Origin: Spirochaetia bacterium
Lineage (GTDB): Bacteria; Spirochaetota; UBA4802; UBA5550
Assembly: GCA_009885955.1 (NCBI GenBank)
Contig: VFJS01000031.1
Location: forward strand, 62,001 to 126,000
Reading direction: 5' to 3'
Length of the DNA: 64,000 nucleotides
Shown here: in pieces, positions 1 to 15,079 of the stretch
Layout: every line of letters starts with the position of its first letter
How positions within the stretch are numbered: the stretch's first letter is position 1
Translations under genes and position numbers: made by a program
The notes under the pieces: model-generated
Databases searched by the model: none
What the model saw: the letters and a program-made list of their open reading frames with translations, nothing else
What the model was told of the DNA's origin: nothing

Positions 1-679
1 GATCAAGGGAGGATATTTCAATATCCGCAGAGAGTTTCGGGAAACCGTAAGGCCACCTCTCTCCTCCGCGTAAATAACATACTGCCATATCCGCTGCCCG
101 GGCTGCTGCGACATCATTTCTGGAGTCCCCTACAAAGATGGTTTCTCCCGGTTCCATGCCTAATGACTTCAGCCCCTTTACAAGCCCTTCATGGTGCGGC
201 TTAAGCATTAAGACATCATTTCGAGTCACCATGTTTTCAAAACATCCATCCAGGCTGAACAAGGGAAGAGCCTTCTGAATGCAGATCCTCCCGACACTTG
301 TCACAAGTCCCATCCTGAATCCGCCGTCCAGGAGCATCCTCAGGGTATTGAGGGTCTCAGGGTAAAGGCTCCACCTTGTCAGGGCATCGGCATCATACCT
401 GTCATAGATCCTGTTGATAATCTCCATGGCGCTGGCGATTTCATGAGAACTCTTTCCATGCGCATGCATCCCCTGCGTCATGTTATAGATTGCCGCATAG
501 TCAGGAGAGTACCCATACCATTCTTTCAGGAAACCGATTTCCGAAATCAGGGCAAAAGTCTCATTCACCGCGTCATCAAGCTTCCATTGAAAATCAACAA
601 GGGTCCCCTCATAATCAAAAAGAACTCCCCTGATTTTACCAGGGGATATTTTCTCTGCATTTGAGTTAATGGAGGTCAA
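1..679 (-). CDS. HAD-superfamily hydrolase, C-terminus cut by window edge
   Basis: Translating the minus strand gives a HAD-like protein that runs off the left edge. Motif I reads GVLFDYEGTL, motif III contains KPHHEG, and motif IV reads FVGDSRNDV followed by AARAADM. The nucleophilic Asp is present, but the usual second Asp of DxD is Glu (DYE). I chose a TTG start overlapping the ubiX stop (TTGA) because AGGTGG lies just upstream; an internal start is possible. In Thauera-type phenol metabolism the phenylphosphate carboxylase delta subunit is a HAD phosphatase-like protein, and the position next to ubiX, ubiD and pps-like genes fits that role. The delta-subunit assignment is inference; the HAD family is clear. 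Confidence 0.75.
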   Translation of the reverse strand, partial: MTSINSNAEKISPGKIRGVLFDYEGTLVDFQWKLDDAVNETFALISEIGFLKEWYGYSPDYAAIYNMTQGMHAHGKSSHEIASAMEIINRIYDRYDADALTRWSLYPETLNTLRMLLDGGFRMGLVTSVGRICIQKALPLFSLDGCFENMVTRNDVLMLKPHHEGLVKGLKSLGMEPGETIFVGDSRNDVAAARAADMAVCYLRGGERWPYGFPKLSADIEISSLD

Positions 680-1236
680 CCATTCCACCTGGTGAAAAGA
701 TCATGGCTTATTTCCAGATAATCAAAAATCTTTCCAATTGTCTGATGTATAATATCTTCAATGGTCTTTGGATTGTGATAAAAAGAGGGGACTGGCGGCA
801 GTATGTGGGCACCCATGTCAGCAGCCTTGTACATTAATTTCAAATGGCCCTTATGCAGAGGGGTTTCCCTGACAACGAGGACAAGTTTTCTCTTCTCCTT
901 TAATGTCACATCTGCGGCCCGTACGAGTAGATTATCAGTGTAACAGTTGGCTATTCCCGATAAGGATTTTATTGTACACGGAATTACTACCATCGCATGC
1001 GTGAGAAAAGATCCGCTGGAAACCGGCGCTCCCATATTCCCATAGTCATGGTTAAAATCCGCCAGATTGATAACATCTTCAGCGCTCCAGTCTGTTTCTA
1101 TATGTATATTTTTTTTAGCCGAATCCGTAAGAATAAGATGGGTTTCAACATCACTCTTTTTCAACTGCCTGAGAAGTTCGATCCCGTATATAACACCGCT
1201 TGCGCCGGAAATACCTATAATTATCTTTTTTTTCAT
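676..1236 (-). CDS. ubiX: UbiX-type flavin prenyltransferase
   Basis: A 186-residue protein with the UbiX/Pad1 nucleotide-binding signature GISGASGVIYG at residues 8-18, then PVSSGSF, VIPCTIKSLSGIA and a PPVPSFYHNP segment near the C-terminus, all typical of the family. The family attaches a dimethylallyl group to FMN to make prenylated FMN, the cofactor of UbiD decarboxylases. Length is normal. It overlaps the HAD gene by 4 bases and follows the LpdD-like gene, so it is probably co-transcribed with the UbiD-family gene at 2500-3954 that needs its product. A GGAGAAG sequence precedes the ATG. Function of the family is established; the dedicated partnership is inferred from context. Confidence 0.9.
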   Translation of the reverse strand: MKKKIIIGISGASGVIYGIELLRQLKKSDVETHLILTDSAKKNIHIETDWSAEDVINLADFNHDYGNMGAPVSSGSFLTHAMVVIPCTIKSLSGIANCYTDNLLVRAADVTLKEKRKLVLVVRETPLHKGHLKLMYKAADMGAHILPPVPSFYHNPKTIEDIIHQTIGKIFDYLEISHDLFTRWNG

Positions 1237-1260: not shown

Positions 1261-1325
1261 GCCCTCACCCGCTTCGACAGGTGCTACACTGAGCTATGCC
1301 GAAGTGCTCAGAGCACCGTACTGAA
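1261..1325. repeat. Imperfect palindromic repeat between ubiX and lpdD-like gene
   Basis: The segment contains CTTCGACAGGTGCTACACTG on one arm and its imperfect reverse complement on the other (CAGAGCACCGTACTGAAGG). It resembles the CTTCGACAG...CTGAAG intergenic repeats scattered in many bacterial chromosomes. The outer arm extends into the end of the LpdD-like reading frame and supplies its last codons. No second copy was noticed in this window. Confidence 0.5.
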
Positions 1326-1700
1326 GGATAATTTTATTTTATCTATAATCAGCACAACAAGGTCCCTGCTGTTTATTCCGACTTTTTTCAAACCGTCTTC
1401 TGATATGCCGTCCCAGTGCATTCCGGCTGTCACTACGACATTTGTTTTGAATGCAGCCGAAATTGTTTCCGATGCGAGCTTGGCAATTTCATCCTCTTTA
1501 TGCGATAAAAAACAGAAAACCGATGCCGTTGAACTTGTGATATCAGGGTCCTTCAGGCTTGGCCTGGGCTGCGCAACTGCCACAGCTCCGATATGCGGCC
1601 TCTCCCCTCCATAGACGGCTATCAGCAAATCATCCCCAATCGACTTAATACTTGCTTCAAGATCATATTCGCCGCTGACTGTTCTTACAATGGCATCCAT
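1308..1700 (-). CDS. LpdD-like small protein (UbiD/prenylated-flavin accessory)
   Basis: A 130-residue protein. The central motifs HIGAVAVAQPRPSLKDP, then a SSTASVF/LSHKEDEIAKLA segment and VVVTAGMHWDGIS, match what I recall of the LpdD-like family, small proteins found next to UbiD-type decarboxylases such as gallate decarboxylase and proposed to help load prenylated FMN. The last residues (SFSTVL) come from a palindromic repeat at 1261-1325, so the native C-terminus may have been altered. It lies 9 bases after the CBS-domain gene and just before ubiX in the same operon. No catalytic function is claimed; the family call is from motif memory and moderately secure. Confidence 0.65.
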   Translation of the reverse strand: MDAIVRTVSGEYDLEASIKSIGDDLLIAVYGGERPHIGAVAVAQPRPSLKDPDITSSTASVFCFLSHKEDEIAKLASETISAAFKTNVVVTAGMHWDGISEDGLKKVGINSRDLVVLIIDKIKLSFSTVL

Positions 1701-1709
1701 AATAATCTG

Positions 1710-2354
1710 TCACTCGTCCTCAGTGGTTATATTATATCCGAGGTCTTCCAATTGTGTTATAATCTTATTCCTGTTGTCTGATTTAAGGCGTATGTAAAGC
1801 CTTCTTTTCCCGGAATCGGACTGTTTCAGGGTAAAAAGACTGTACAGGCTGCCGCCGGAATTATAGATACTCTGAATAATTTCATTCACATGAGTGCTTT
1901 CAATAACTTCACCCTCTATGCTGATCCCATGAACATCTTCATCAATCCCCAGGATCTGTGACAGTGAGTTATATATGTCAAGATCGGATACGGTACCGAC
2001 AACTTCCTCTCCATCCATGACAGGATAGTAACTCCTTCCGAACTTTTTTCCTTCTAAAAGGGCTTTCTTCACTGAATCACGTATCGACATGGTGATTGGA
2101 TTCCTGACCATGAGATCCTTGACCTTGAGCCTGTTATTAAAATAATCGAGTTCATGAATGCTTCCCGTGGCCGTCACATGATGCGCAGCTTTCATGAGAT
2201 CACGCCTTGCAAGTATTCCCCTCAGCCTGCCGTTGTCCACAACCGGAATAAACTGCAATTTATACTCGTCAAATATTTTCTTGGCCTCAAAGGTAAGCAT
2301 ATCGCTCTGGATCGTTAACGGCTTATCTTTCCTCATCCAGTTTTTAATAATCAT
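1710..2354 (-). CDS. ppsC: Phenylphosphate synthase subunit C-like, CBS-domain protein
   Basis: A 214-residue protein with two CBS domains (roughly residues 1-58 and 76-135, each with the pattern MRKDKPLTI.../MVRNPITMS... and V(V)G(T/I)(V/L)(S/A)RRDL-like ends) followed by an ACT-like C-terminal domain. In Thauera aromatica phenylphosphate synthase is built from a 70-kDa, a 40-kDa and a 24-kDa subunit; the smallest is a CBS-domain protein that stimulates the other two. This gene has the right size and domain type and sits in one operon with homologues of the two larger subunits, so PpsC is the likely role. CBS proteins also occur as general adenylate sensors, so the specific name rests on context. 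Confidence 0.7.
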   Translation of the reverse strand: MIIKNWMRKDKPLTIQSDMLTFEAKKIFDEYKLQFIPVVDNGRLRGILARRDLMKAAHHVTATGSIHELDYFNNRLKVKDLMVRNPITMSIRDSVKKALLEGKKFGRSYYPVMDGEEVVGTVSDLDIYNSLSQILGIDEDVHGISIEGEVIESTHVNEIIQSIYNSGGSLYSLFTLKQSDSGKRRLYIRLKSDNRNKIITQLEDLGYNITTEDE

Positions 2355-2499: not shown

Positions 2500-3954
2500 T
2501 TATATATACTTCATCTGGGTCGGAACTACGCCGAATTCCTCAAGGCCGAATTCCTTCCACCTGGAAAGTACCCTTGCAACCATATCCCTGTTCATCATGA
2601 TTTCCTGGGGCTTATCCTTTCCCCATTCATAGGGGGTTGTGGCATCCATAATTATTCTTGAAACAATATCCCTCTCCTTTATATGGAGGGCCGGGTCAAG
2701 AGGTGTTGAACGCCCGCGGTCGATAATCTGGGTATCCCTTTTCGGATCATATCGTACTGAGAGGGCCCACATTACCCTGTCCCAATCGTCTGCAGGAATA
2801 TCTTCATCAACAACGATGACGCCTTTCAGGCCATAGTGGCCGGTTGTTGATGCTATTACGGCGTTACCCGCATGGTTTCCATGGCCCGGATACATGGTCT
2901 TTACTGATACGATAGCCCAGAAACGTCCTGTTGAACTCGCAGGGATATAGACCGATTTAATGCCCGGGACTTTCATTGTCTCAAGATCGTACCACAGCGT
3001 GGCCGTCCTGTTCAAAGACTGGATCATGTGAATATCATTGATCGGCTTTCCGACAGAGGTTGCCCAGAAAATCGGCTTTTTCCGCTGCAGTATTCTTGTA
3101 ACCCTGAGCGCAGGTTTCGGAAAATCCTTCCCCCTGTTGCCGGAATAATACCCGGTATACTCACCAAAGGGCCCTTCATCGCGGAGCACTTTGGGGTCGA
3201 TCTCACCCTCAAGAATTATCTCTGCATGGGCCGGGAGCTTCAACCCGGTGTGATCACTCTCAAAAATTTCAACAGGCTCCCCTCTCAGGGCTCCAACTAC
3301 ATCATATTCGTCAACACCTGCCGGTACAAGGGTGCTACCAGCCAGAAACAGCAGTGGGTCGCATCCGATGACGAAGGCTGCCGGCATTTTTTTCCCCATG
3401 GCCTCATATTTTTTCATCATCATATCGCCATGTTTTCCCTTGATGATTTGTACGCCGACATGCTTGTCGTCAAGAATCTGCCCGCGGTAAGTCCCGAGGT
3501 TTGTCCAGCCCGTATCGGGGTCCTTTGTAACAAGATATGCCGAGGTGGCTATGAAACGTCCCCCATCCTCGGGATAAAACCACGGGGCCGGATAGTTATT
3601 TACATTAATCTTGTCTCCTTCGATTATTGTTTCCATGACAGGCGGATTTTTTACCATCTTCGGTTTTATGAGCTGTTTTGTCGTTGCCTCCATCCAGCCT
3701 TTTGAGAGCTCGCACATTGTCTTGTCAGAGCTCTGCCCGAGCATGATTGCCAGCTTCTGAGGGGTGGTGCATGCGCTGATGCAGACCGGCATGTCATATC
3801 CTTTCGGATTTTCAAAAATCAATACAGGGCCGTTGGCTTCCTCATTAATTTTAGCGGTATGGGACAATTCAAATTTTACATCAACTTCTGCTTTTATCCT
3901 GTGAAGAATCCCCTCCTCTTCGCATTTATCAATATAATCCCTGAGACTTTTCAT
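2500..3954 (-). CDS. UbiD-family (de)carboxylase, phenylphosphate carboxylase-like
   Basis: A 484-residue UbiD-family protein. The family's catalytic segment DEGPFGEYTGYYSG is at about residues 260-273, preceded by the N-terminal cofactor/metal region with GGRFIATSAYLVT and NLGTYRGQ. UbiD enzymes use prenylated FMN to add or remove CO2 on unsaturated or aromatic acids. The gene lies between the ppsB- and ppsC-like genes with ubiX and an lpdD-like gene downstream, which points to carboxylation of phenylphosphate to 4-hydroxybenzoate. The characterised phenylphosphate carboxylase has two UbiD-like subunits (alpha, beta) plus gamma and delta; only one UbiD gene is visible here, so the enzyme may be simpler or another subunit lies off the window. 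Substrate is inference. Confidence 0.8.
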   Translation of the reverse strand: MKSLRDYIDKCEEEGILHRIKAEVDVKFELSHTAKINEEANGPVLIFENPKGYDMPVCISACTTPQKLAIMLGQSSDKTMCELSKGWMEATTKQLIKPKMVKNPPVMETIIEGDKINVNNYPAPWFYPEDGGRFIATSAYLVTKDPDTGWTNLGTYRGQILDDKHVGVQIIKGKHGDMMMKKYEAMGKKMPAAFVIGCDPLLFLAGSTLVPAGVDEYDVVGALRGEPVEIFESDHTGLKLPAHAEIILEGEIDPKVLRDEGPFGEYTGYYSGNRGKDFPKPALRVTRILQRKKPIFWATSVGKPINDIHMIQSLNRTATLWYDLETMKVPGIKSVYIPASSTGRFWAIVSVKTMYPGHGNHAGNAVIASTTGHYGLKGVIVVDEDIPADDWDRVMWALSVRYDPKRDTQIIDRGRSTPLDPALHIKERDIVSRIIMDATTPYEWGKDKPQEIMMNRDMVARVLSRWKEFGLEEFGVVPTQMKYI

Positions 3955-4032: not shown

Positions 4033-5124
4033 TTACGATAATTTTTTGCCGGCGATAAGGCTCGCGACAATATGGTCCATGGCCGATGATTTCGGCTGGT
4101 AGACCGGTTCGTTTTTTTTCTGGCTCCATACGGTTTCGGGCCTGCTCTGAAGAATCATTATCTGCCCGTTCTGCGGAAGGTCCTTGTCGATGGCCCATTC
4201 AATATCCATTGGCTTGCCGTAATGCTTTTCAATCAGTTTCCCGATCCTTGCCAGTTCTACGGCTTCCGTGTCAAGAATGCACTGATCATCCCTCTTCTCA
4301 AGGGGAATCTCCCTCTTCTCAACGGAATGAGTTTCCTGATTCAATGTGAACAGGCACTCCTTATGTGAAATATTTCTCTTGATTATTTCAAAGGTCACCT
4401 TGTTTATAATGAAATGGTCAGGGGTTGTTTCACCGCATACAACACTCTCGCCAAATCCCCAGTTCGCATCTATGGCAATTGTTGATATGTCCCCGGTAGC
4501 CGGGTTGATTGTAAACATCACTCCGGCAGTGAAAGACTTAACCATTTTCTGCACGGCAACTGAAATGCCGACCTGGTCATGGGAATATCCCATTTTATTC
4601 CTGTACGCTATCGCCCTTGAGGTATACAGGCTTGACCAGCATTGTTTTACCCTGGAAAGGATATCGTCGATACCCCGGATCCATAAAAAAGTATCCTGCT
4701 GCCCGGCAAAACTCGCGTCCGGCATATCCTCGGCTGTGGCGCTGGACCGGACAGCCGACGGGACTGCGGGAAAGTTGCAGTTATTCGACAAACATCTGTA
4801 ATACTCACCGATAAAGTCCTCAAGCTCAATGCTTATGGAGGCATTCTCTATAAACCCCCGTATTTTCGCGCTGGCATCCTCAGCCGCGTCCAGGTTATCA
4901 TTTTTAACACTATTCACAATCCGCAAGATGTCCCCTTTAATTCCTGCCTCTTCTATGAAGCGCCAATAAGAATCAGTTGTTATCGCATACCCGGGGGGGA
5001 CGGGTATTTCCGCCTTCAGCAGTTCGCCCAGGCTTGCGCACTTCCCTCCTACCCGCGGAACGGAATGTATGTCGCACTCCTCAAACCATAATACAAATTC
5101 AGCGCATCTACTCATTTTAAGCAC
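4033..5124 (-). CDS. ppsB: Phenylphosphate synthase subunit B-like (PEP-synthase ATP-binding domain)
   Basis: A 363-residue protein equivalent to the N-terminal ATP-binding part of phosphoenolpyruvate synthase: RVGGKCASLGELL near residue 24, PVPPGYAITTDSYWRF, PSAVRSSATAEDMPDASFAG with the conserved arginine around residue 125, and MDIEWAIDKDLPQNGQIMILQSRPET at the C-terminus. It lacks the swivelling phosphohistidine domain, which is in the neighbouring 616-residue protein. This split, and the size near 40 kDa, match PpsB of phenylphosphate synthase. It would use ATP to phosphorylate the histidine of the PpsA partner. Other split PEP-synthase-like enzymes exist, so the call depends on its neighbours. 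Confidence 0.75.
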   Translation of the reverse strand: MLKMSRCAEFVLWFEECDIHSVPRVGGKCASLGELLKAEIPVPPGYAITTDSYWRFIEEAGIKGDILRIVNSVKNDNLDAAEDASAKIRGFIENASISIELEDFIGEYYRCLSNNCNFPAVPSAVRSSATAEDMPDASFAGQQDTFLWIRGIDDILSRVKQCWSSLYTSRAIAYRNKMGYSHDQVGISVAVQKMVKSFTAGVMFTINPATGDISTIAIDANWGFGESVVCGETTPDHFIINKVTFEIIKRNISHKECLFTLNQETHSVEKREIPLEKRDDQCILDTEAVELARIGKLIEKHYGKPMDIEWAIDKDLPQNGQIMILQSRPETVWSQKKNEPVYQPKSSAMDHIVASLIAGKKLS

Positions 5125-5266: not shown

Positions 5267-7117
5267 TTAACGGAGGATATCAATCCTTCCGGTATCACCG
5301 TTAACCCTTATTTTCATCCCGGTCTTGATTATCTTCGTCGACTGGCCTGTCCCTACAACCGCCGGCATCCCATACTCGCGGCAGACAATGGCAGCATGGC
5401 TCATGATACCGCCGACGTCGGTGACGCAGGCCTTTATTTTTTGAAACACCGGAGCCCATGAAGGCGACGTTGTCGGGCTTACCAGAATCTCGCCGTCCTT
5501 CAGGCTGTTTATCTCCTGAACCGATCTGCAAACCCTGGCAATGCCTTCAGCAACTCCCGGCGAAGCGGCAAATCCTGTAATTTCGGTCACCTTGTCCGGA
5601 TCCCCGATCTCCCTGAGCTTCAGCCAGCCCCTCAGGCTCTCATTGGTAACGCCCCAGAGGACAATGGTGAAAGGCTCGGTAACTACTTCAGGCGGTGTCC
5701 CGAGGGCTTCCGGCGCTTTCCACTCCTTGAACTTTTTAAAAACACCTTTTCTCCATTCGATCTCCTTGGGCCAGTGTATTGCGCCGTAGGGCTTCACAAC
5801 GCTTGCCCATGCAGTCACAAGGTCCCACAAAGCTTCCTTTATCTCGCCGCGCTGCATGAACCATATGTCCTCTATATCCTTTATTATCCCATGGCTCTTC
5901 ATAATGGCAGCAACATCCCTCACCTTGTTCCAGAATATTGAATGGAACCAATGTTCGACAAAAAATAAATGGTTTTCAACATAGGGAAACACGAGTTTAG
6001 CAGTGCCCTGGAGCTGGTCAAAAGTTTTCCTGTCTTCATCGGTTTTCAGCAGACCCCGATATTCTTTTGTTATGCGCTCCCGGTCGGCCTGAACTTTTTC
6101 AAGGGGCCTGTCAATTGATTGCCCTTTCTGGAGCTTCTCAATATATATGCGCATTGAATTAAGCGGGATGTTCAGATCATCATTCCAGCAGCAGTCAGAA
6201 TGGTACCAGCCGGTCCCTGTTGAAATATAAAACCAGGGATACTTGGCTTTGTCCCATGCCTGGATCCATTTTTTCCCGCCTTCACTTTTCTGCAGTTTTG
6301 CCAGGACCGCATCAAGATTATCGCTGCCTCCGACATCTTTATCGATCTTTAATTCAATCGATAGCTTTGCAAGTTTCTTCAGTTCTTCATCGGGCCTGTA
6401 CATGATAACATCGATACCGCCTACCATCTGGGTAATCCTCTGCAGCGGTATGTCGGGGAATGCCTTGGTGCAGAAATCAACGAATGTTACGTAGGCGGCA
6501 TACCCGAGGTTGAGAAATTCAAAATGGTACTGCCAGCACCTGATGCCGAGGTCTATCAGCCTGTCATAATTGCTGAGGAGTTCATAACCGGTGGATATGC
6601 CGTCGCCCCTTTTAACCCTGGCGAGATCTTCAATATCCGGAAGCTGATCGAACTTCATCGCTTCAAGCTCTTTTATGATATCCTCCATCTTCTTTTTCCA
6701 CTTTTCCTCCAGGCTGTTCCAGTTCTCAAAATAATAACCTGCCCTTTCCATGAACAAGGGGACCCTGGCGCCAATTTCATTGGGGTCAGCAACGCCCACT
6801 GGCGATATATAGATATTTCCGTTTATGATCCTGTGGTCAACCCCGTTTGCAGGGGGTATTTTAAAATATTTTGAGCAGTATTGGGAAAGAGACAGGAACC
6901 AGGCTTCATCCCATATAACGTCAAAGGGGTGAAGTGGTTCAGGATAATGAAGCGCGTCATTGAACCAGAACGTGCTGTTTTCATACTCAGCCCTCTCCTT
7001 ATTCTCGGTTGTGAACTGGTAGTAATAGGGATACATCCTTTCCCATCCTTCAGTTCCGGGGATGGTCTTGATCTCGTGCGGACTTGGAAATTTTGATTTT
7101 GACATTTGACCCTCCAA
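5267..7117 (-). CDS. ppsA: Phenylphosphate synthase subunit A-like (PEP-utilising phosphohistidine subunit)
   Basis: A 616-residue, about 70-kDa protein whose C-terminus carries the PEP-utilising mobile domain: GGIMSHAAIVCREYGMPAVV, with the phosphorylatable histidine at residue 574 (usual TSH here MSH). The long N-terminal part is rich in aromatic residues and is not a pyruvate-binding TIM barrel. In phenylphosphate synthase, PpsA carries the transiently phosphorylated histidine and transfers the phosphoryl group to phenol. Size, domain content and the neighbouring ATP-domain and CBS-domain genes all match that enzyme. The symbol means phenylphosphate synthase A, not PEP synthase. Substrate may be phenol or a substituted phenol. 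An AGGGTC-type ribosome site precedes the ATG at 7117. Confidence 0.75.
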   Translation of the reverse strand: MEGQMSKSKFPSPHEIKTIPGTEGWERMYPYYYQFTTENKERAEYENSTFWFNDALHYPEPLHPFDVIWDEAWFLSLSQYCSKYFKIPPANGVDHRIINGNIYISPVGVADPNEIGARVPLFMERAGYYFENWNSLEEKWKKKMEDIIKELEAMKFDQLPDIEDLARVKRGDGISTGYELLSNYDRLIDLGIRCWQYHFEFLNLGYAAYVTFVDFCTKAFPDIPLQRITQMVGGIDVIMYRPDEELKKLAKLSIELKIDKDVGGSDNLDAVLAKLQKSEGGKKWIQAWDKAKYPWFYISTGTGWYHSDCCWNDDLNIPLNSMRIYIEKLQKGQSIDRPLEKVQADRERITKEYRGLLKTDEDRKTFDQLQGTAKLVFPYVENHLFFVEHWFHSIFWNKVRDVAAIMKSHGIIKDIEDIWFMQRGEIKEALWDLVTAWASVVKPYGAIHWPKEIEWRKGVFKKFKEWKAPEALGTPPEVVTEPFTIVLWGVTNESLRGWLKLREIGDPDKVTEITGFAASPGVAEGIARVCRSVQEINSLKDGEILVSPTTSPSWAPVFQKIKACVTDVGGIMSHAAIVCREYGMPAVVGTGQSTKIIKTGMKIRVNGDTGRIDILR

Positions 7118-7254: not shown

Positions 7255-8493
7255 CTAAATTTTCCAATCCTTGAGTTTCATAAACACATCCACCGCTTTT
7301 CCGGCAAATTCCGGTGTATATAGATGAAGGTCGACTTCCTCTATCATTTCCCTGTTTTTGATCTGCTTGTATAGTTCCGCCACAAAAGCTTTATCCGCTT
7401 CCGGGTCATAAAGGGGCCTCCCCTCCATATCCAGTGAAGACCATCCCTTTAAAGGAATCAGAAATTTCACCGGACCCTTTGCCCTGTTAAGTTTTTCCGC
7501 TATTACCACGGCTGCCTGCCGCAGCTCTTCGGCGGTGGTCCTCACCTGTACTCTGAGCTTGTCCATCACGTACTGTTTCCTGTTTTTTGTCTCTTCAAGC
7601 TTTTTGACATTTCCTCCATAACTTAAAAAGTCAAGGCCGCAGGGTGTTATAATAAGCGGTATGCCCCTTTGGCAGGCCGCGTCAAATCTGTTGGCTCCCG
7701 GATTTCTGTTCCCCCCGAAGAGGTTTTCTACAATTCCGCCCGAACAGATATCCATAACTCCGTCAAAAAAGCCATCGCCAATCATCTCCTCCATGGCCTT
7801 GTCGCCCTCCCCCTGGGCATGGCAGGGAACAACAATAAATCCCCGGTCTTCCAGGAACCCGATGGCAGCCTGAACGCACATCTCTCCAGGGCCGAAGGAT
7901 GTTATTGCGACAACCGGGCTGTCGAATTTCTGTACCTGCCCCTGTGTCATTTCAACCATACCGCAAATAGCACCGGTGGCATTTACAATCTGCAATTTCA
8001 GAAGAGGGTTCATCTTCACGATATCGAGTACGGTATGGTGCATCGTTATGTCCCTGGTGCCCACATACTGCCCGATGTATTTCGGATGCGCAGCCATGGG
8101 CGAAGCCATTAATTTCGGGACACCGAAAGGGAGCTCTCTCATGATGCTCGTAGCAACCAGGGTTGCCGTTGCGCCTCCTATCCCGAAGGCTCCATGAACC
8201 TCTCCGTTCCGGATCATCTCCCTGACAATAGCCACACCCCCTTTTATCTGGTTATCTGTGGCAATATCCCTGTTGGTTTTGTAATATTCCCTGACCTTTT
8301 CTATAGGCAGCCCGCCCCTCAGGGCCACCTCTTCGCATGTAATATCCCCTGAAAATGGAGGGGGCTCTTCCATGCTGAAGTCGAGCAGAATCCCGCGATG
8401 CCCCCTCTCTTCAATCATATCCTTTACAAATTTGATTTCTTTTCCCCTGGTATCCAGGTTGCAGATTATTAAAATTCCTTTCTTTTCCCCCAT
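7255..8493 (-). CDS. UPF0261 / Tm-1-like ATP-binding-domain protein
   Basis: A 412-residue protein matching the UPF0261 (Tm-1-like N-terminal domain) family: an opening Rossmann-like strand with ILIICNLDTRGKEIKFV, then GAFGIGGATATLVAT, VPKLMASPMA, YVGTRDITMHHTVLDI and a C-terminal half with GWSSLDMEGRPLYDPEAD. The family is related to the ATP-binding N-terminal part of the plant Tm-1 antiviral protein; its bacterial function is not established. It sits between the aryl-CoA ligase and ppsA, in the same direction, so it is probably part of the aromatic-activation operon. A role in that pathway is inferred only from position. Confidence 0.75.
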   Translation of the reverse strand: MGEKKGILIICNLDTRGKEIKFVKDMIEERGHRGILLDFSMEEPPPFSGDITCEEVALRGGLPIEKVREYYKTNRDIATDNQIKGGVAIVREMIRNGEVHGAFGIGGATATLVATSIMRELPFGVPKLMASPMAAHPKYIGQYVGTRDITMHHTVLDIVKMNPLLKLQIVNATGAICGMVEMTQGQVQKFDSPVVAITSFGPGEMCVQAAIGFLEDRGFIVVPCHAQGEGDKAMEEMIGDGFFDGVMDICSGGIVENLFGGNRNPGANRFDAACQRGIPLIITPCGLDFLSYGGNVKKLEETKNRKQYVMDKLRVQVRTTAEELRQAAVVIAEKLNRAKGPVKFLIPLKGWSSLDMEGRPLYDPEADKAFVAELYKQIKNREMIEEVDLHLYTPEFAGKAVDVFMKLKDWKI

Positions 8494-8605: not shown

Positions 8606-10201
8606 TTACATAGAGCCTTTCACAAAGTCCCTGAGCCTGAAGCGCTGAATCTTTCCAGTGGCAGTCTTGGGGAGTTCATCTACAAACCGGAACCACCTGG
8701 GATATTTATAGGGCGCCAGGCCGGTTTTGCAGAAAGACCTGAGGTCCTCCCCGGTTTCAGGATTATTATCCCTTTGATCCTTTAAAACCACAAATGCCAT
8801 GGGCTTCACAAGCCCGTTTTCATCAGCATGACCTATGACCGCGGCCTCCAGGACCTTCGGGTGCTCAAACAGCCTCGATTCTATCTCAAACGGGGAGCAC
8901 CAGATGCCTCCCACTTTCATCATATCATCATTCCTCCCGCAGTAAAAAAAATATCCATCCTTATCAAGGAGATAGGTATCGCCGGTTTGAAGCCAGCCGT
9001 CCCTCATTGTCTCAGCGGTTCTTTCCGGGTTATTCCAGTAGCGGTTTGCCGCTGAACGGCTCTTAATCAGGAGCTGCCCGCTCTCACCCTGCGGCACATC
9101 CCTCCCCTTTTCATCGACAATTCTTGAATAATAGTCAGGCAGGAGCCGTCCGCTGGAACCCGGCTTCACATCCCCGGGCCGGTTTGAAATGAAGCTGTGA
9201 AGGTTTTCAGTTGAGCCGATGCCGTCAAGGATTTCAATCCCTGTCAAATCCTTCCACCGCTTGAAAAGTTCCGGGGGGAGCGCTTCACCGGCCGAAGTGC
9301 AAATCTTCAGAAAGGAGAGGTTAACCTTATCCAACTCAAGCTCATTAAGCATTCTCGCATATAATGTGGGGACGCCGAAAAAATGTGTGGGCTTGAACAT
9401 TCCCATGGTTTCATTGACGGTTTCAGGTGTGGGCCGCCTGTCATCGAGTACCACTGCACCTCCGGTATACAGCGGAAAGGAAAGGCTGTTCCCCAGGCCG
9501 TAGGCAAAAAAAAGCCTGGCAGCGGAAAAATTGACCGTGTCCTTATTAATCCCGAATATTTCAACTCCGCTCCTCTGGCTGGTGATGATCATGTCCCTGT
9601 GGCTGTGTACAGCGCCTTTGGGGTTCCCGGTGGAACCGGAAGAGTAGAGAATAAAACAGTCGTCCCCTTCTTTCGCGGCTGCCGGAAGGAGTTCCGCACC
9701 ATGGCCCCGGGTAAAAGACCTGAAAGCCGCCCCGTCATCATCAAGACAAAGGGTAAAAGCAGGTTTATGAGCCGATTCATTTATTGCCGGCTCCAATTCA
9801 GGTGAAAATTCTGATGAATAAATCAGTGCGGAGCAGCTGCTGTCCTCCAGAAAAAAACTGTAATCTTTAGCCCGTAATATTGTATTAACCGGAACAGGGA
9901 TATATCCCCCCTTTATTGACCCGAGAAATGCATAGAAAAATTCCGGGCAATCCTTTACGACAATAAGAATTCTCCCTCCTTTTTCAAGGCCCCTGTCTTT
10001 CAGCGCATTCCCCAAGCGGTTCACATTCTCATAGAGCTCCCTGAAGGAGATATCTTCCCCCTTCATAGTCCTGATAATTATCCTGTCACCCATACCAGCT
10101 TCAATATGGCGATCAACAAGATAGGATGCAACGTTGAATATTTCAGAGAAGTTAATTCCAAAAGGGGTTTGGGAATAGTCGATGTATACGCTATTATTCA
10201 T
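8606..10201 (-). CDS. Benzoate-CoA ligase family AMP-forming ligase
   Basis: A 531-residue member of the acyl-adenylate-forming family. The P-loop-like motif YSSGSTGNPKGAVHSH is near residues 187-202, the hinge segment DGYFFYCGRNDDMMKVGG near 423, and the C-terminal PKTATGKIQR with the conserved catalytic lysine K517. The overall pattern resembles benzoate/4-hydroxybenzoate-CoA ligases more than long-chain acyl ligases. It would convert an aromatic acid, ATP and CoA into the aryl-CoA, AMP and pyrophosphate. It is the first gene of the minus-strand run that includes phenol-carboxylating enzymes, so 4-hydroxybenzoate is the natural substrate guess. Substrate specificity cannot be read from sequence here. 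Confidence 0.82.
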   Translation of the reverse strand: MNNSVYIDYSQTPFGINFSEIFNVASYLVDRHIEAGMGDRIIIRTMKGEDISFRELYENVNRLGNALKDRGLEKGGRILIVVKDCPEFFYAFLGSIKGGYIPVPVNTILRAKDYSFFLEDSSCSALIYSSEFSPELEPAINESAHKPAFTLCLDDDGAAFRSFTRGHGAELLPAAAKEGDDCFILYSSGSTGNPKGAVHSHRDMIITSQRSGVEIFGINKDTVNFSAARLFFAYGLGNSLSFPLYTGGAVVLDDRRPTPETVNETMGMFKPTHFFGVPTLYARMLNELELDKVNLSFLKICTSAGEALPPELFKRWKDLTGIEILDGIGSTENLHSFISNRPGDVKPGSSGRLLPDYYSRIVDEKGRDVPQGESGQLLIKSRSAANRYWNNPERTAETMRDGWLQTGDTYLLDKDGYFFYCGRNDDMMKVGGIWCSPFEIESRLFEHPKVLEAAVIGHADENGLVKPMAFVVLKDQRDNNPETGEDLRSFCKTGLAPYKYPRWFRFVDELPKTATGKIQRFRLRDFVKGSM

Positions 10202-13172: not shown

Positions 13173-13390
13173 CCTGCACATTCAACAGGCCCCGGTGCTG
13201 ATTATTGAAACTCAGTTCATAAAAATTCCCTGCAGGCACCGGAAATTTTTAATTTTTAATTGACAATTATTAAAATCTCCCTTTAGCTGCAACTAAGTTA
13301 GCATACCTAACAATATACAATAGTATTCATGCCCCGGGATGATAGAAGAAAATGCATGAATATGACATTATTACACAATGGAGGGGCGGT

Positions 13391-15079
13391 ATGAAAAAGC
13401 CAAAATTACTGGCATTAATTTCTGCTTTAACATTCAGTTTGATTTTCTCATTTTTCTATACGAAAGCCGATGCGCAGAAGGACAAATCTTCAGGATCGGT
13501 AAAACCGGCAGGCCTTGAAACCCCGGTAAACGCAAAAACCTGCTATGAATGCCATGAGACGGTAAAGGATCTTCATGCAGCAGGAAAACATTCAACGGTC
13601 AACTGCGCCGCCTGCCACAGGGGCCTTAAAAAACACCTGGAAACGCAGACCCCCGAAACCCGGCCGGTAACCGACACCTCGTGGGAGGCATGTGCGAAGT
13701 GCCATGAAAATCAGTTTAAAAGTTTCATGGATGTGACATGGCACAGGCCGGCACGGGATGAAAAATCACAACTCACAAACAGGGCCCCCAACCCCTACTG
13801 GGACAAGCTCATGGCAGGACACGGATTTACAAAGGAACACAACCTTACACGAAGCCATAACTGGATGCTCATAGACCACATGGTGGTTGACAGGGCATAT
13901 GGAGGCAGGTTCCAGGGGAAAAACGGATGGCTCTATTTCCTTGAAAAGGGAAAGGTATGGGATGTTCTCGAGGACAGGTATCCCGATGCCAGGGAACATA
14001 AGCCCTTTATCACGCAGAGCGCGGCCGCGGCAAATCCTGTATGCATCCAGTGCAAGTCCCAGGACCACATTCTTAAATGGGCATACATGGGGGACCCGGT
14101 AGAGGGAGCCACATGGTCCAGGACATCAAAGGTTGTTGAAGTGGCCAAGGACATCCAGCACGGCCTGAACTGCTTCCAGTGTCATGACCCGCACGCGGCT
14201 AAACCGAGAATTGTCCGTGACGGCCTCATCGACGCCCTTACCAGGGCCGACGGCGACACCCTCTGGCATAAAGACCCGAAGAGGACCGGCATCAAGGTGA
14301 TAGAAATGGGAGTGCGGGGATTTACCAGAAAAATTGCCCTCCTGGAAAAGTATGATACCCGGCTCCTTTGCGGACAGTGCCACGTGGAGTACAACTGCAA
14401 CCCTGGATATGACCCAAAGATAGAGGATACTTCAAAATACACCGTTACGATGGCCGACAGGAGGACTAACCATTTCCCCTACAAGGATGTCTTTGAACTC
14501 TACAACCACTATGTAAACAAGGTAAGTTTCCTTGATTTCAAACATGCCCTCACCGGTGGCCTGTTGTGGAAAGGCCAGCACCCTGAATCAGAGACATACT
14601 ACAATTCAAAGCATGCCAAAGCCGGCGCAGGATGCGACAGCTGCCATACGCCTAAGGTAATAGATAAAAAAACAGGCAAAACATATACATCGCACTTTGC
14701 AGTGACGCCCAGGGTCCAACTCAAGGAGACATGCCTGAAATGCCATAAAAGCTGGACAGAGGAACAGGCCAGGTATGCCATTGATTCAATTAAGGCCCAC
14801 ATTAGGGGGAAGATGAGAAAAGCCGAATACTGGCTCTCGGCCCTGATAGACAGGATAGTTGGCGCCAAAAAGGCCGGATTAGAAGACAAAATTGTAAAAC
14901 AGGCGCAGGACCAGCACCTGAGGGCCCATATACTCTGGGAATTCTGGACAGCAGAAAACTCAGACGGGTTCCACAATCCTGACATGGCCAGGGAATCATT
15001 GACAAGGTCGGTTGATGAATCACAGAAAGGAATTAAACTGATTGATGAAGCACTGGCATCAAAAATCGGCACCAAATAA
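13391..15079 (+). CDS. Octaheme cytochrome c nitrite reductase (ammonia-forming type)
   Basis: From the ATG at 13391, preceded by GGAGGGGCGGT, this gives 562 residues with an N-terminal signal sequence ending near ADA/Q, so the product is periplasmic. It has seven CxxCH haem sites (CYECH, CAACH, CAKCH, CFQCH, CGQCH, CDSCH, CLKCH) and one CIQCK. A lysine-ligated CxxCK in fourth position is the hallmark of the octaheme ONR/TvNiR branch of NrfA-like enzymes; CGQCHVEYNC supplies the active-site tyrosine. The family reduces nitrite by six electrons to ammonium and can act on hydroxylamine and sulfite. No electron-donor quinol dehydrogenase gene is adjacent. Confidence 0.9.
   Translation: MKKPKLLALISALTFSLIFSFFYTKADAQKDKSSGSVKPAGLETPVNAKTCYECHETVKDLHAAGKHSTVNCAACHRGLKKHLETQTPETRPVTDTSWEACAKCHENQFKSFMDVTWHRPARDEKSQLTNRAPNPYWDKLMAGHGFTKEHNLTRSHNWMLIDHMVVDRAYGGRFQGKNGWLYFLEKGKVWDVLEDRYPDAREHKPFITQSAAAANPVCIQCKSQDHILKWAYMGDPVEGATWSRTSKVVEVAKDIQHGLNCFQCHDPHAAKPRIVRDGLIDALTRADGDTLWHKDPKRTGIKVIEMGVRGFTRKIALLEKYDTRLLCGQCHVEYNCNPGYDPKIEDTSKYTVTMADRRTNHFPYKDVFELYNHYVNKVSFLDFKHALTGGLLWKGQHPESETYYNSKHAKAGAGCDSCHTPKVIDKKTGKTYTSHFAVTPRVQLKETCLKCHKSWTEEQARYAIDSIKAHIRGKMRKAEYWLSALIDRIVGAKKAGLEDKIVKQAQDQHLRAHILWEFWTAENSDGFHNPDMARESLTRSVDESQKGIKLIDEALASKIGTK

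Follow-up and report, generated by a model that had tools for sequence, protein, structure and literature searches.

In many bacterial operons that carry genes for a phenylphosphate synthase, a gene of the UPF0261 family appears to take the place of three carboxylase subunits. Comparisons of many genomes show, at the level of sequence, a module swap in which UPF0261 is present where PpcA, PpcC and PpcD are missing, together with co-inheritance of UPF0261 and one lineage of the UbiD-family protein PpcB. UPF0261 very probably belongs to the carboxylase module of these operons. A more specific account, in which the operon would convert phenol to 4-hydroxybenzoate through a two-component carboxylase, with UPF0261 handling the aryl phosphate and PpcB adding CO2, has in our judgement an even chance of being right. 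The comparison puts a name to the gene that fills the position of these subunits in many bacteria, for example Geotalea toluenoxydans (L052) and a Geobacter sp. (L045). The family, so far familiar chiefly through the tomato virus-resistance protein Tm-1, would gain a second biochemical setting beside acetovanillone kinase, and the carboxylase question can now be tested with two proteins.

The operon around UPF0261

The gene lies in a 64,000-nucleotide stretch of a Spirochaetia bacterium genome, the whole of which we call the window. An earlier note on this DNA had placed a UPF0261/Tm-1-like gene between an aryl-CoA ligase and ppsA in matching orientation, and reading frame, domains and neighbours all bear this out (Table 1). 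The open reading frame is complete and encodes a full-length protein, with PF06792 matching residues 6-184 (E 3.5e-46, 157.8 bits) and PF23189 matching residues 193-407 (E 9.8e-66, 221.5 bits; Pfam cut-off 27 for both). The protein exceeds the cut-off of the NCBIfam subfamily model NF002674 (350.8 bits against 335) and falls short of that of the equivalog NF002676 (490.3 bits against 556). A search of the window genome at E 0.001 returned no other UPF0261. The note's description of the family as being of unknown bacterial function is outdated, since a structure with a bound aromatic ligand is on record and a kinase assignment, the latter inferred, goes with it.

Table 1. Genes of the operon in the window, from upstream to downstream
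Feature	Position in window	Strand	Model match or remark
Benzoate-CoA-ligase-family enzyme	8606..10201	-	TIGR02262, 560.8 bits (cut-off 375.25)
UPF0261/Tm-1-like protein	7255..8493	-	412 aa, ATG start; proposed PpcB partner
PpsA-like phenylphosphate synthase subunit, PEP-utilizers mobile domain	5267..7117	-	NF006152, 1032.1 bits (cut-off 723)
PpsB-like ATP-binding (PPDK_N) phenylphosphate synthase subunit	4033..5124	-	PF01326, E 2.5e-113
PpcB-like UbiD carboxylase	2500..3954	-	TIGR02724, 577 bits (cut-off 468.95)
CBS-domain protein, PpsC-like (phenylphosphate synthase gamma)	1710..2354	-	
PAC_bac (proteasome-assembly-chaperone-like) protein	1308..1700	-	found in some related clusters
UbiX flavin prenyltransferase	676..1236	-	NF004685, 255.3 bits (cut-off 188)
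HAD-superfamily hydrolase, 237 aa	1..688	-	cut by window left edge

All nine genes are read from the same strand in the order benzoate-CoA-ligase-family gene, UPF0261, PpsA, PpsB, PpcB, CBS, PAC_bac, UbiX and HAD. A PpsA above the NF006152 cut-off with an adjacent PpsB identifies a phenylphosphate synthase. The PpcB carries the motifs EGPFGE and NLGTYR and is a member of the UPF0261-associated lineage described below, and UbiX is the source of the prenyl-FMN used by UbiD enzymes. As in Thauera aromatica, which has PpcABCD, the PpcB, PpsAB, CBS protein and UbiX are encoded in one operon and the same reaction is expected. Unlike the Thauera operon, that of the window has UPF0261 and lacks the other three Ppc subunits: PpcA (TIGR02723) had no match in the window genome at E 1e-90, and no PpcC or PpcD was found when the operon was read by eye.

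The HAD hydrolase gene, whole at G000:C99:61975-62688, overlaps the stop of ubiX and may encode the phosphatase of this operon. Farther out, past divergent enoyl-CoA hydratase and acyl-CoA dehydrogenase genes, stands a multihaem cytochrome c552 gene (window 13352-15079; PF02335, E 1.4e-51).

UPF0261 in place of PpcA, PpcC and PpcD

PpsA was found over its cut-off in three of 59 genomes around the window's own, itself included (G000, G006 and G033). The cluster recurs in G006, from the window's family and evidently the genome of locus L002, where its proteins are 62-90% identical; a more distant version, with UPF0261 at 41% identity, occurs in G033, from the window's order. Searching species-representative genomes for patterns taken from the window UPF0261 yielded 76 loci, a set biased to close relatives by the use of exact peptide patterns. 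Hosts include a spirochaete, alpha-, beta- and gammaproteobacteria, Geobacter and Geotalea. We refer to the first 69 loci (L002-L070), with UPF0261 at 62-79% identity, as window-type loci.

PpcB is present on 60 of the 69 window-type loci, PpsA or PpsB on 56, the CBS gene on 64 and UbiX on 56, and PpcA, PpcC and PpcD are on none of the 69 (tblastn at 1e-8, over half of the query). PpcB lies upstream of UPF0261 on the same strand in 57/69 (median gap 53 nt) and the CBS gene downstream in 64/69 (median gap 25 nt, with a few far outliers). In eight of the nine loci without PpcB, UPF0261 is less than 800 bases from a contig end. Seven of the nine, all among those eight, come from assemblies that returned no PpcB at E 1e-100; the other two are a locus in G085, a genome whose PpcB sits in a different cluster, and L004, for which PpcB is on a separate contig. 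No PpcA exceeded the cut-off of 564.6 bits in 53 genomes (50 from the 76 loci plus three; 52 may be distinct, as G006 and G059 look like one genome), four of which have a UbiD at 343-355 bits.

The earlier note had proposed that linkage, if recurrent, might point to aromatic or acyl phosphate metabolism. The neighbourhood survey supports this, as the linkage recurs across phyla. Its partner needs restating: UPF0261 is linked to one PpcB lineage, much more than to PpsA, and not to the benzoate-CoA-ligase-family gene. We rejected the latter as a fixed neighbour, with any match in 8/69 window-type loci and just one above 31% identity. We likewise rejected the idea that PpcD is regularly replaced by an HAD phosphatase, which the window operon encodes but which has a match in only 5/69.

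Because sampling on UPF0261 was to be avoided, we searched 395 genomes of the family of G063, a Rhodocyclaceae bacterium that itself carries UPF0261, by PpsA. PpsA was present in 58, in 54 of them over cut-off. Ten of the 58 have UPF0261 (68-70% identity) without PpcA, 46 have PpcA without an operon-type UPF0261 (in G496 as two fragments below cut-off), and none of the 58 has both (Fisher p 2.8e-11, for genomes that are related and so not independent). The remaining two lack both: G491 has PpsA at only 42% and PpsB at only 39% identity to their window counterparts, and in G604 a window-like PpcB (68%) lies at a contig end. G584 (L065), with PpcB and UPF0261 on a 4-kb contig, stands outside the 58 as it has no PpsA at 1e-150. 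More distant UPF0261 paralogs, at 26-29% identity, occur in 12 of the 46 PpcA genomes and in G191 and G422, and on no contig does such a paralog lie less than 80 kb from PpsA or PpcA. All 22 PpcA-type operons that were fetched, which we also call Thauera-type, share the order ppsA ppsB ppsC ppcB ppcD ppcA ppcC ubiD ubiX, and UPF0261 is absent from all 22.

A second sample was drawn from the phylum to which G094 (Geotalea toluenoxydans, L052) belongs, 395 genomes of which were searched for PpcB. There were 71 loci over cut-off in 65 genomes; a 72nd match, at 455.6 bits, fell below it and was excluded. UPF0261 lies less than 10 kb from PpcB in 46 of the 71, on the same strand in 44. We examined all 71 on stretches of 3 to 18 kb; 24 of these carry PpcA and 47 lack it. 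UPF0261 is within reach in 40 of the 47 loci without PpcA, compared with 6 of the 24 with it (p 9e-7). These last, L257-L262, carry PpcA and PpcD plus a UPF0261 gene 1.5-7.1 kb from PpcB, so the exclusion of UPF0261 and PpcA is not absolute. Three of the four mixed loci placed on the UPF0261 tree (L257, L258 and L260) fall in its carboxylase-associated clade. Seven loci have neither module: L222, L287 and L289 are contigs of less than 4 kb; in the genomes of L283, L285 and L289 a UPF0261 is on another contig (L284, L286 and L290); and the lack of both modules in L228 and L288 stays unexplained.

Of the 40 UPF0261-only loci of this phylum, 32 also have an AMP-ligase-like gene on the stretch, often between PpcB and UPF0261; clusters L241 and L276 run PpcB, AMP ligase, UPF0261, UbiX. 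The layout resembles the phenol cluster of Desulfatiglans anilini (ppc-beta 02059, AMP ligase 02058, ubiX 02056), as given in the accessible part of its published description. A second, divergent UPF0261 near the PpcB cluster was seen in L243, L249, L252, L269, L270, L272, L275, L277 and L278, and such copies form a clade of their own on the tree. Genes similar to PAC_bac, which in the window stands beside ubiX, occur on 4/69 window-type loci and on 13/45 UPF0261-only, 2/18 PpcA-only and 2/6 mixed stretches of the second phylum.

Inheritance of UPF0261 with PpcB and with PpsA

Trees of PpcB and PpsA separate the enzyme with which UPF0261 travels. The rows offered came from 24 of the 69 window-type loci, from L072, L121, L194 and L204, from 22 Thauera-type loci and from 76 second-phylum stretches. 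We removed rows that were short or contained stops; a few loci entered twice under two identifiers (for example L052/L282), loci with both modules were labelled PpcA-type, and the trees were quick LG+G4 reconstructions.

On the PpcB tree a single change between PpcA-type and UPF0261-only accounts for all 105 labelled rows, against a mean of 34 and a minimum of 27 changes in 200 label shuffles, and the branch splitting the two types has an SH-aLRT of 99. Among five unlabelled PpcB rows from loci with neither module, four group with the UPF0261 type and one, L222 on a 3.9-kb contig, with the PpcA type. The PpsA tree needs 8 changes (shuffles: mean 23.6, minimum 18), or 5 if rows of at least 54% are kept, and a single clade of PpcA-type rows is rejected on it (p-AU 3.2e-7 and 2.0e-5); for the same 63 loci, PpcB gives one change only.

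Pairwise identities, with 22 UPF0261-type rows sampled, give the same picture. PpsA is 79.8% identical between types (up to 93.8%) and 79.0% within the UPF0261 type, and PpsB 70.5% between and 71.6% within. Window-type PpcB is a sister lineage to Thauera-type PpcB, at an average of 53.6% identity between types (maximum 55.9%) compared with 91.1% and 86.0% within, the 86.0% being the UPF0261 type. UbiX is intermediate, at 57.2% between types (up to 87.8%) and 71.9% within the UPF0261 type.

Loss of a catalytic motif in PpcB, considered as a reason for the new partner, was rejected, as the motif region is kept in both types: EGPFGE is found in 61/61 PpcB rows of UPF0261-type clusters and is replaced by EGPFAE in 21 PpcA-type rows. 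Fixed differences between the two PpcB types number three, too few for mapping an interface.

By these trees, the two kinds of operon have swapped PpsA several times, while UPF0261 has remained with its PpcB lineage. PpsA is also linked to the split, showing fewer changes than the shuffles, but it follows the split less well than PpcB does. Since the split is tracked exactly by PpcB and loosely by PpsA, we assign UPF0261 to the carboxylase and not to the phosphorylating step, and this contrast between the trees is the strongest argument for counting UPF0261 as a carboxylase component.

Structure, relatives and possible role of UPF0261

An AlphaFold2 model of the window UPF0261 (mean pLDDT 88.8, pTM 0.77) has the fold of Tm-1, its best structural match (Z 41.8, rmsd 3.0 over 387 residues). 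It also matches PDB 9mpy over its whole length (Z 33.0, rmsd 7.0 over 396 residues, 29% identity), and the two proteins have the same two UPF0261 domains. According to its title, that entry is Saro_1862, a UPF0261 domain protein of Novosphingobium aromaticivorans, with bound acetovanillone. Judging from the title and from PMC13101465, the 9mpy protein is probably MarK, an aryl kinase that the accessible portion of that paper describes as single-component and as initiating the breakdown of acetovanillone. UDP-GlcNAc 2-epimerases and other folds, with Z of 12 or less and mostly over the N-terminal domain, were set aside as sharing a Rossmann-like arrangement. A PEP-hydrolase-family TIM-barrel partner such as accompanies Tm-1-like proteins was rejected: tblastn at 1e-5 with two queries found none in 152 related loci or the window, and matched the positive control, haloarchaeal locus L125.

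Plant Tm-1 acts by binding another protein (PMC5028733, as far as its available text goes), and 9mpy holds an aromatic ligand. A UPF0261 that senses phenol or phenylphosphate and regulates without catalysis could share these properties. We hold such a sensor highly improbable, since replacement of PpcA, PpcC and PpcD would not be expected of one, and since a divergent gene resembling a sigma-54-type activator, recognised by eye, already stands upstream of the operon in three of four loci inspected.

A quick tree of 84 UPF0261 proteins contains a carboxylase-linked clade of 62 (SH-aLRT 99), a few members of which are not beside PpcB. The clade includes the window protein and excludes 9mpy, Tm-1 and TIM-barrel-linked proteins, with a warning from the program of long branches around 9mpy and Tm-1. 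We compared 49 phenol-operon rows of the 62 with eight outside sequences. D14, T15, D38, G106, G107, K127, S131, D148, D248, R269, R305 and D355, and also G228, P347 and G350, are common to the 49 rows (at least 94%) and 9mpy. D231 (G outside), D311 (N outside), R314, H153, R263, G252 and E256 are present in 96-100% of the 49 and absent from all eight, with D231, D311 and R314 invariant in the 49; where these have D231, D311, R314, H153, R263 and E256, 9mpy has G, N, L, N, A and D. The kept core residues together with the group-specific changes point to a related but altered active site.

These comparisons bear on a different role, in which UPF0261 would be a second, MarK-like phenol kinase beside PpsAB, recapturing, for example, phenol lost through hydrolysis or decarboxylation, and PpcB alone would carboxylate. 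The acetovanillone in 9mpy, the single-component nature of MarK (PMC13101465, in its accessible portion) and the first twelve shared residues listed above speak for such a kinase. We nevertheless regard it as rather unlikely: the gene tracks the PpcB lineage more than PpsA, most window-type loci already have PpsA or PpsB, all eight outside relatives differ from the 49 rows at D231, D311 and R314, and the phenol-operon group stands apart from 9mpy on the tree. The MarK route, as far as its description is available, is similar in passing through an aryl phosphate and a carboxylation. The window operon differs from it in having PpsAB for phenol phosphorylation and a carboxylase of the UbiD type, not a biotin-dependent one.

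We propose instead a PpcB-UPF0261 carboxylase, because these operons have a PpcB with the UbiD motifs and lack PpcA, PpcC and PpcD, which leaves UPF0261, a relative of which binds a phenolic ketone, as the candidate phosphate-handling protein. PpsAB, with the CBS protein, would convert phenol and ATP to phenylphosphate. PpcB, with prenyl-FMN as in the UbiD family, would be the carboxylase, and UPF0261 would replace Thauera PpcA, PpcC and PpcD. Most likely UPF0261 would bind phenylphosphate and part the phosphoryl group from phenol in step with CO2 addition by PpcB; contact between the two proteins, the phosphoryl-handling role and any involvement of a nucleotide are what we infer. In Thauera, the HAD-type subunit PpcD is credited with the phosphoryl step and is needed for net conversion of phenylphosphate, and the PpcD-like protein of a PpcA-type operon indeed matches HAD models. 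Against the proposal stand the fold, which is that of a kinase relative, and the failure to identify in UPF0261 any residue that would catalyse phosphoryl removal. Other points that weigh against it are the six mixed loci of the second phylum, the looser tracking of the split by PpsA, the difference in UbiX between the types, the AMP-ligase-like gene in most UPF0261-only loci of that phylum and the seven window-type loci whose assemblies returned no PpcB.

A variant in which UPF0261 would act as a phosphotransferase, moving the phosphoryl group from phenylphosphate to ADP or a different acceptor and not to water, we consider very improbable. If it were true, anaerobes living on little energy would recover part of the ATP spent by PpsAB; rough energetics speak against full recovery by this route.

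Published work touches on the proposed PpcB-UPF0261 pair from several sides. In the accessible parts of PMC6114531, the Geobacter metallireducens phenol cluster has a ppc-beta homologue only, as does that of D. anilini, whose genome lacks ppc-gamma; its authors took the carboxylase mechanism to be a different one and suggested carbonylation with CO as a possibility. There, too, three Thauera subunits catalyse CO2 exchange with 4-hydroxybenzoate, and attempts to show phenylphosphate carboxylase activity in extracts of D. anilini failed. That failure fits our proposal, although such failures have other causes too. Two refolded D. anilini UbiD subunits gave no conversion of phenylphosphate (PMC7500099, available part), which fits as well, although this pair is the one that serves for aniline. 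Counting against the proposal, the same two-subunit study reports carboxylation of phenylphosphoamidate in vitro by two D. anilini UbiD subunits with FMN (PMC7500099, available part), and ppc-alpha and ppc-delta homologues have been proposed elsewhere in the D. anilini genome, the ppc-alpha candidate being induced on phenol (PMC6114531, accessible parts).

The UPF0261 family with its recent aromatic-binding structure, and phenylphosphate carboxylase as an enzyme, were known already. We found no literature linking UPF0261 to phenylphosphate among open-licence papers, a set that leaves the MarK paper, which may mention phenol clusters, outside. The available text of PMC5946492 compares operons across groups with PpsAB, PpcB and UbiD- and UbiX-like genes and does not name UPF0261, and the terms Tm-1 and UPF are absent from the accessible parts of two benzene papers (PMC13101534 and PMC13416013).

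The genes that accompany UPF0261 relatives elsewhere also bear on whether it might use a nucleotide to assemble or activate the UbiD enzyme, for instance in prenyl-FMN loading or oxidation. Its presence on the same locus as ubiX and ppcB, in 56/69 and 60/69 window-type loci, would suit such a role. We find this improbable, as the 22 Thauera-type operons, with the same UbiX and three UbiD-family proteins, do without UPF0261, and as the relative most like 9mpy adjoins biotin carboxylase genes, with no UbiD or UbiX in the regions read. In the acetovanillone pathways of the aryl dikinase type (HpeHI or AcvAB), the phenolic OH is likewise phosphorylated before carboxylation and the phosphate then removed (PMC9618137 and PMC13101465, accessible parts). 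A hydroxyphenylethanone is there carboxylated by a three-component biotin-dependent enzyme, with a separate phosphatase, and no UbiD is named in those parts.

On plasmids of Sphingobium yanoikuyae (L126) and Sphingomonas bisphenolicum (L206), a UPF0261 with 67% identity to 9mpy is flanked by a 3-keto-5-aminohexanoate-cleavage-type gene on one side and by biotin-carboxylase genes with an HAD gene on the other. The same plasmids carry pobA, no dikinase gene is in the stretches read, and the arrangement looks like a kinase-started hydroxyacetophenone pathway. On a Thermomicrobium roseum plasmid (L127), UPF0261 and a TIM-barrel partner stand in one row with genes for a PEP/pyruvate-binding and a PEP-utilizing enzyme, a pair that looks like a split dikinase.
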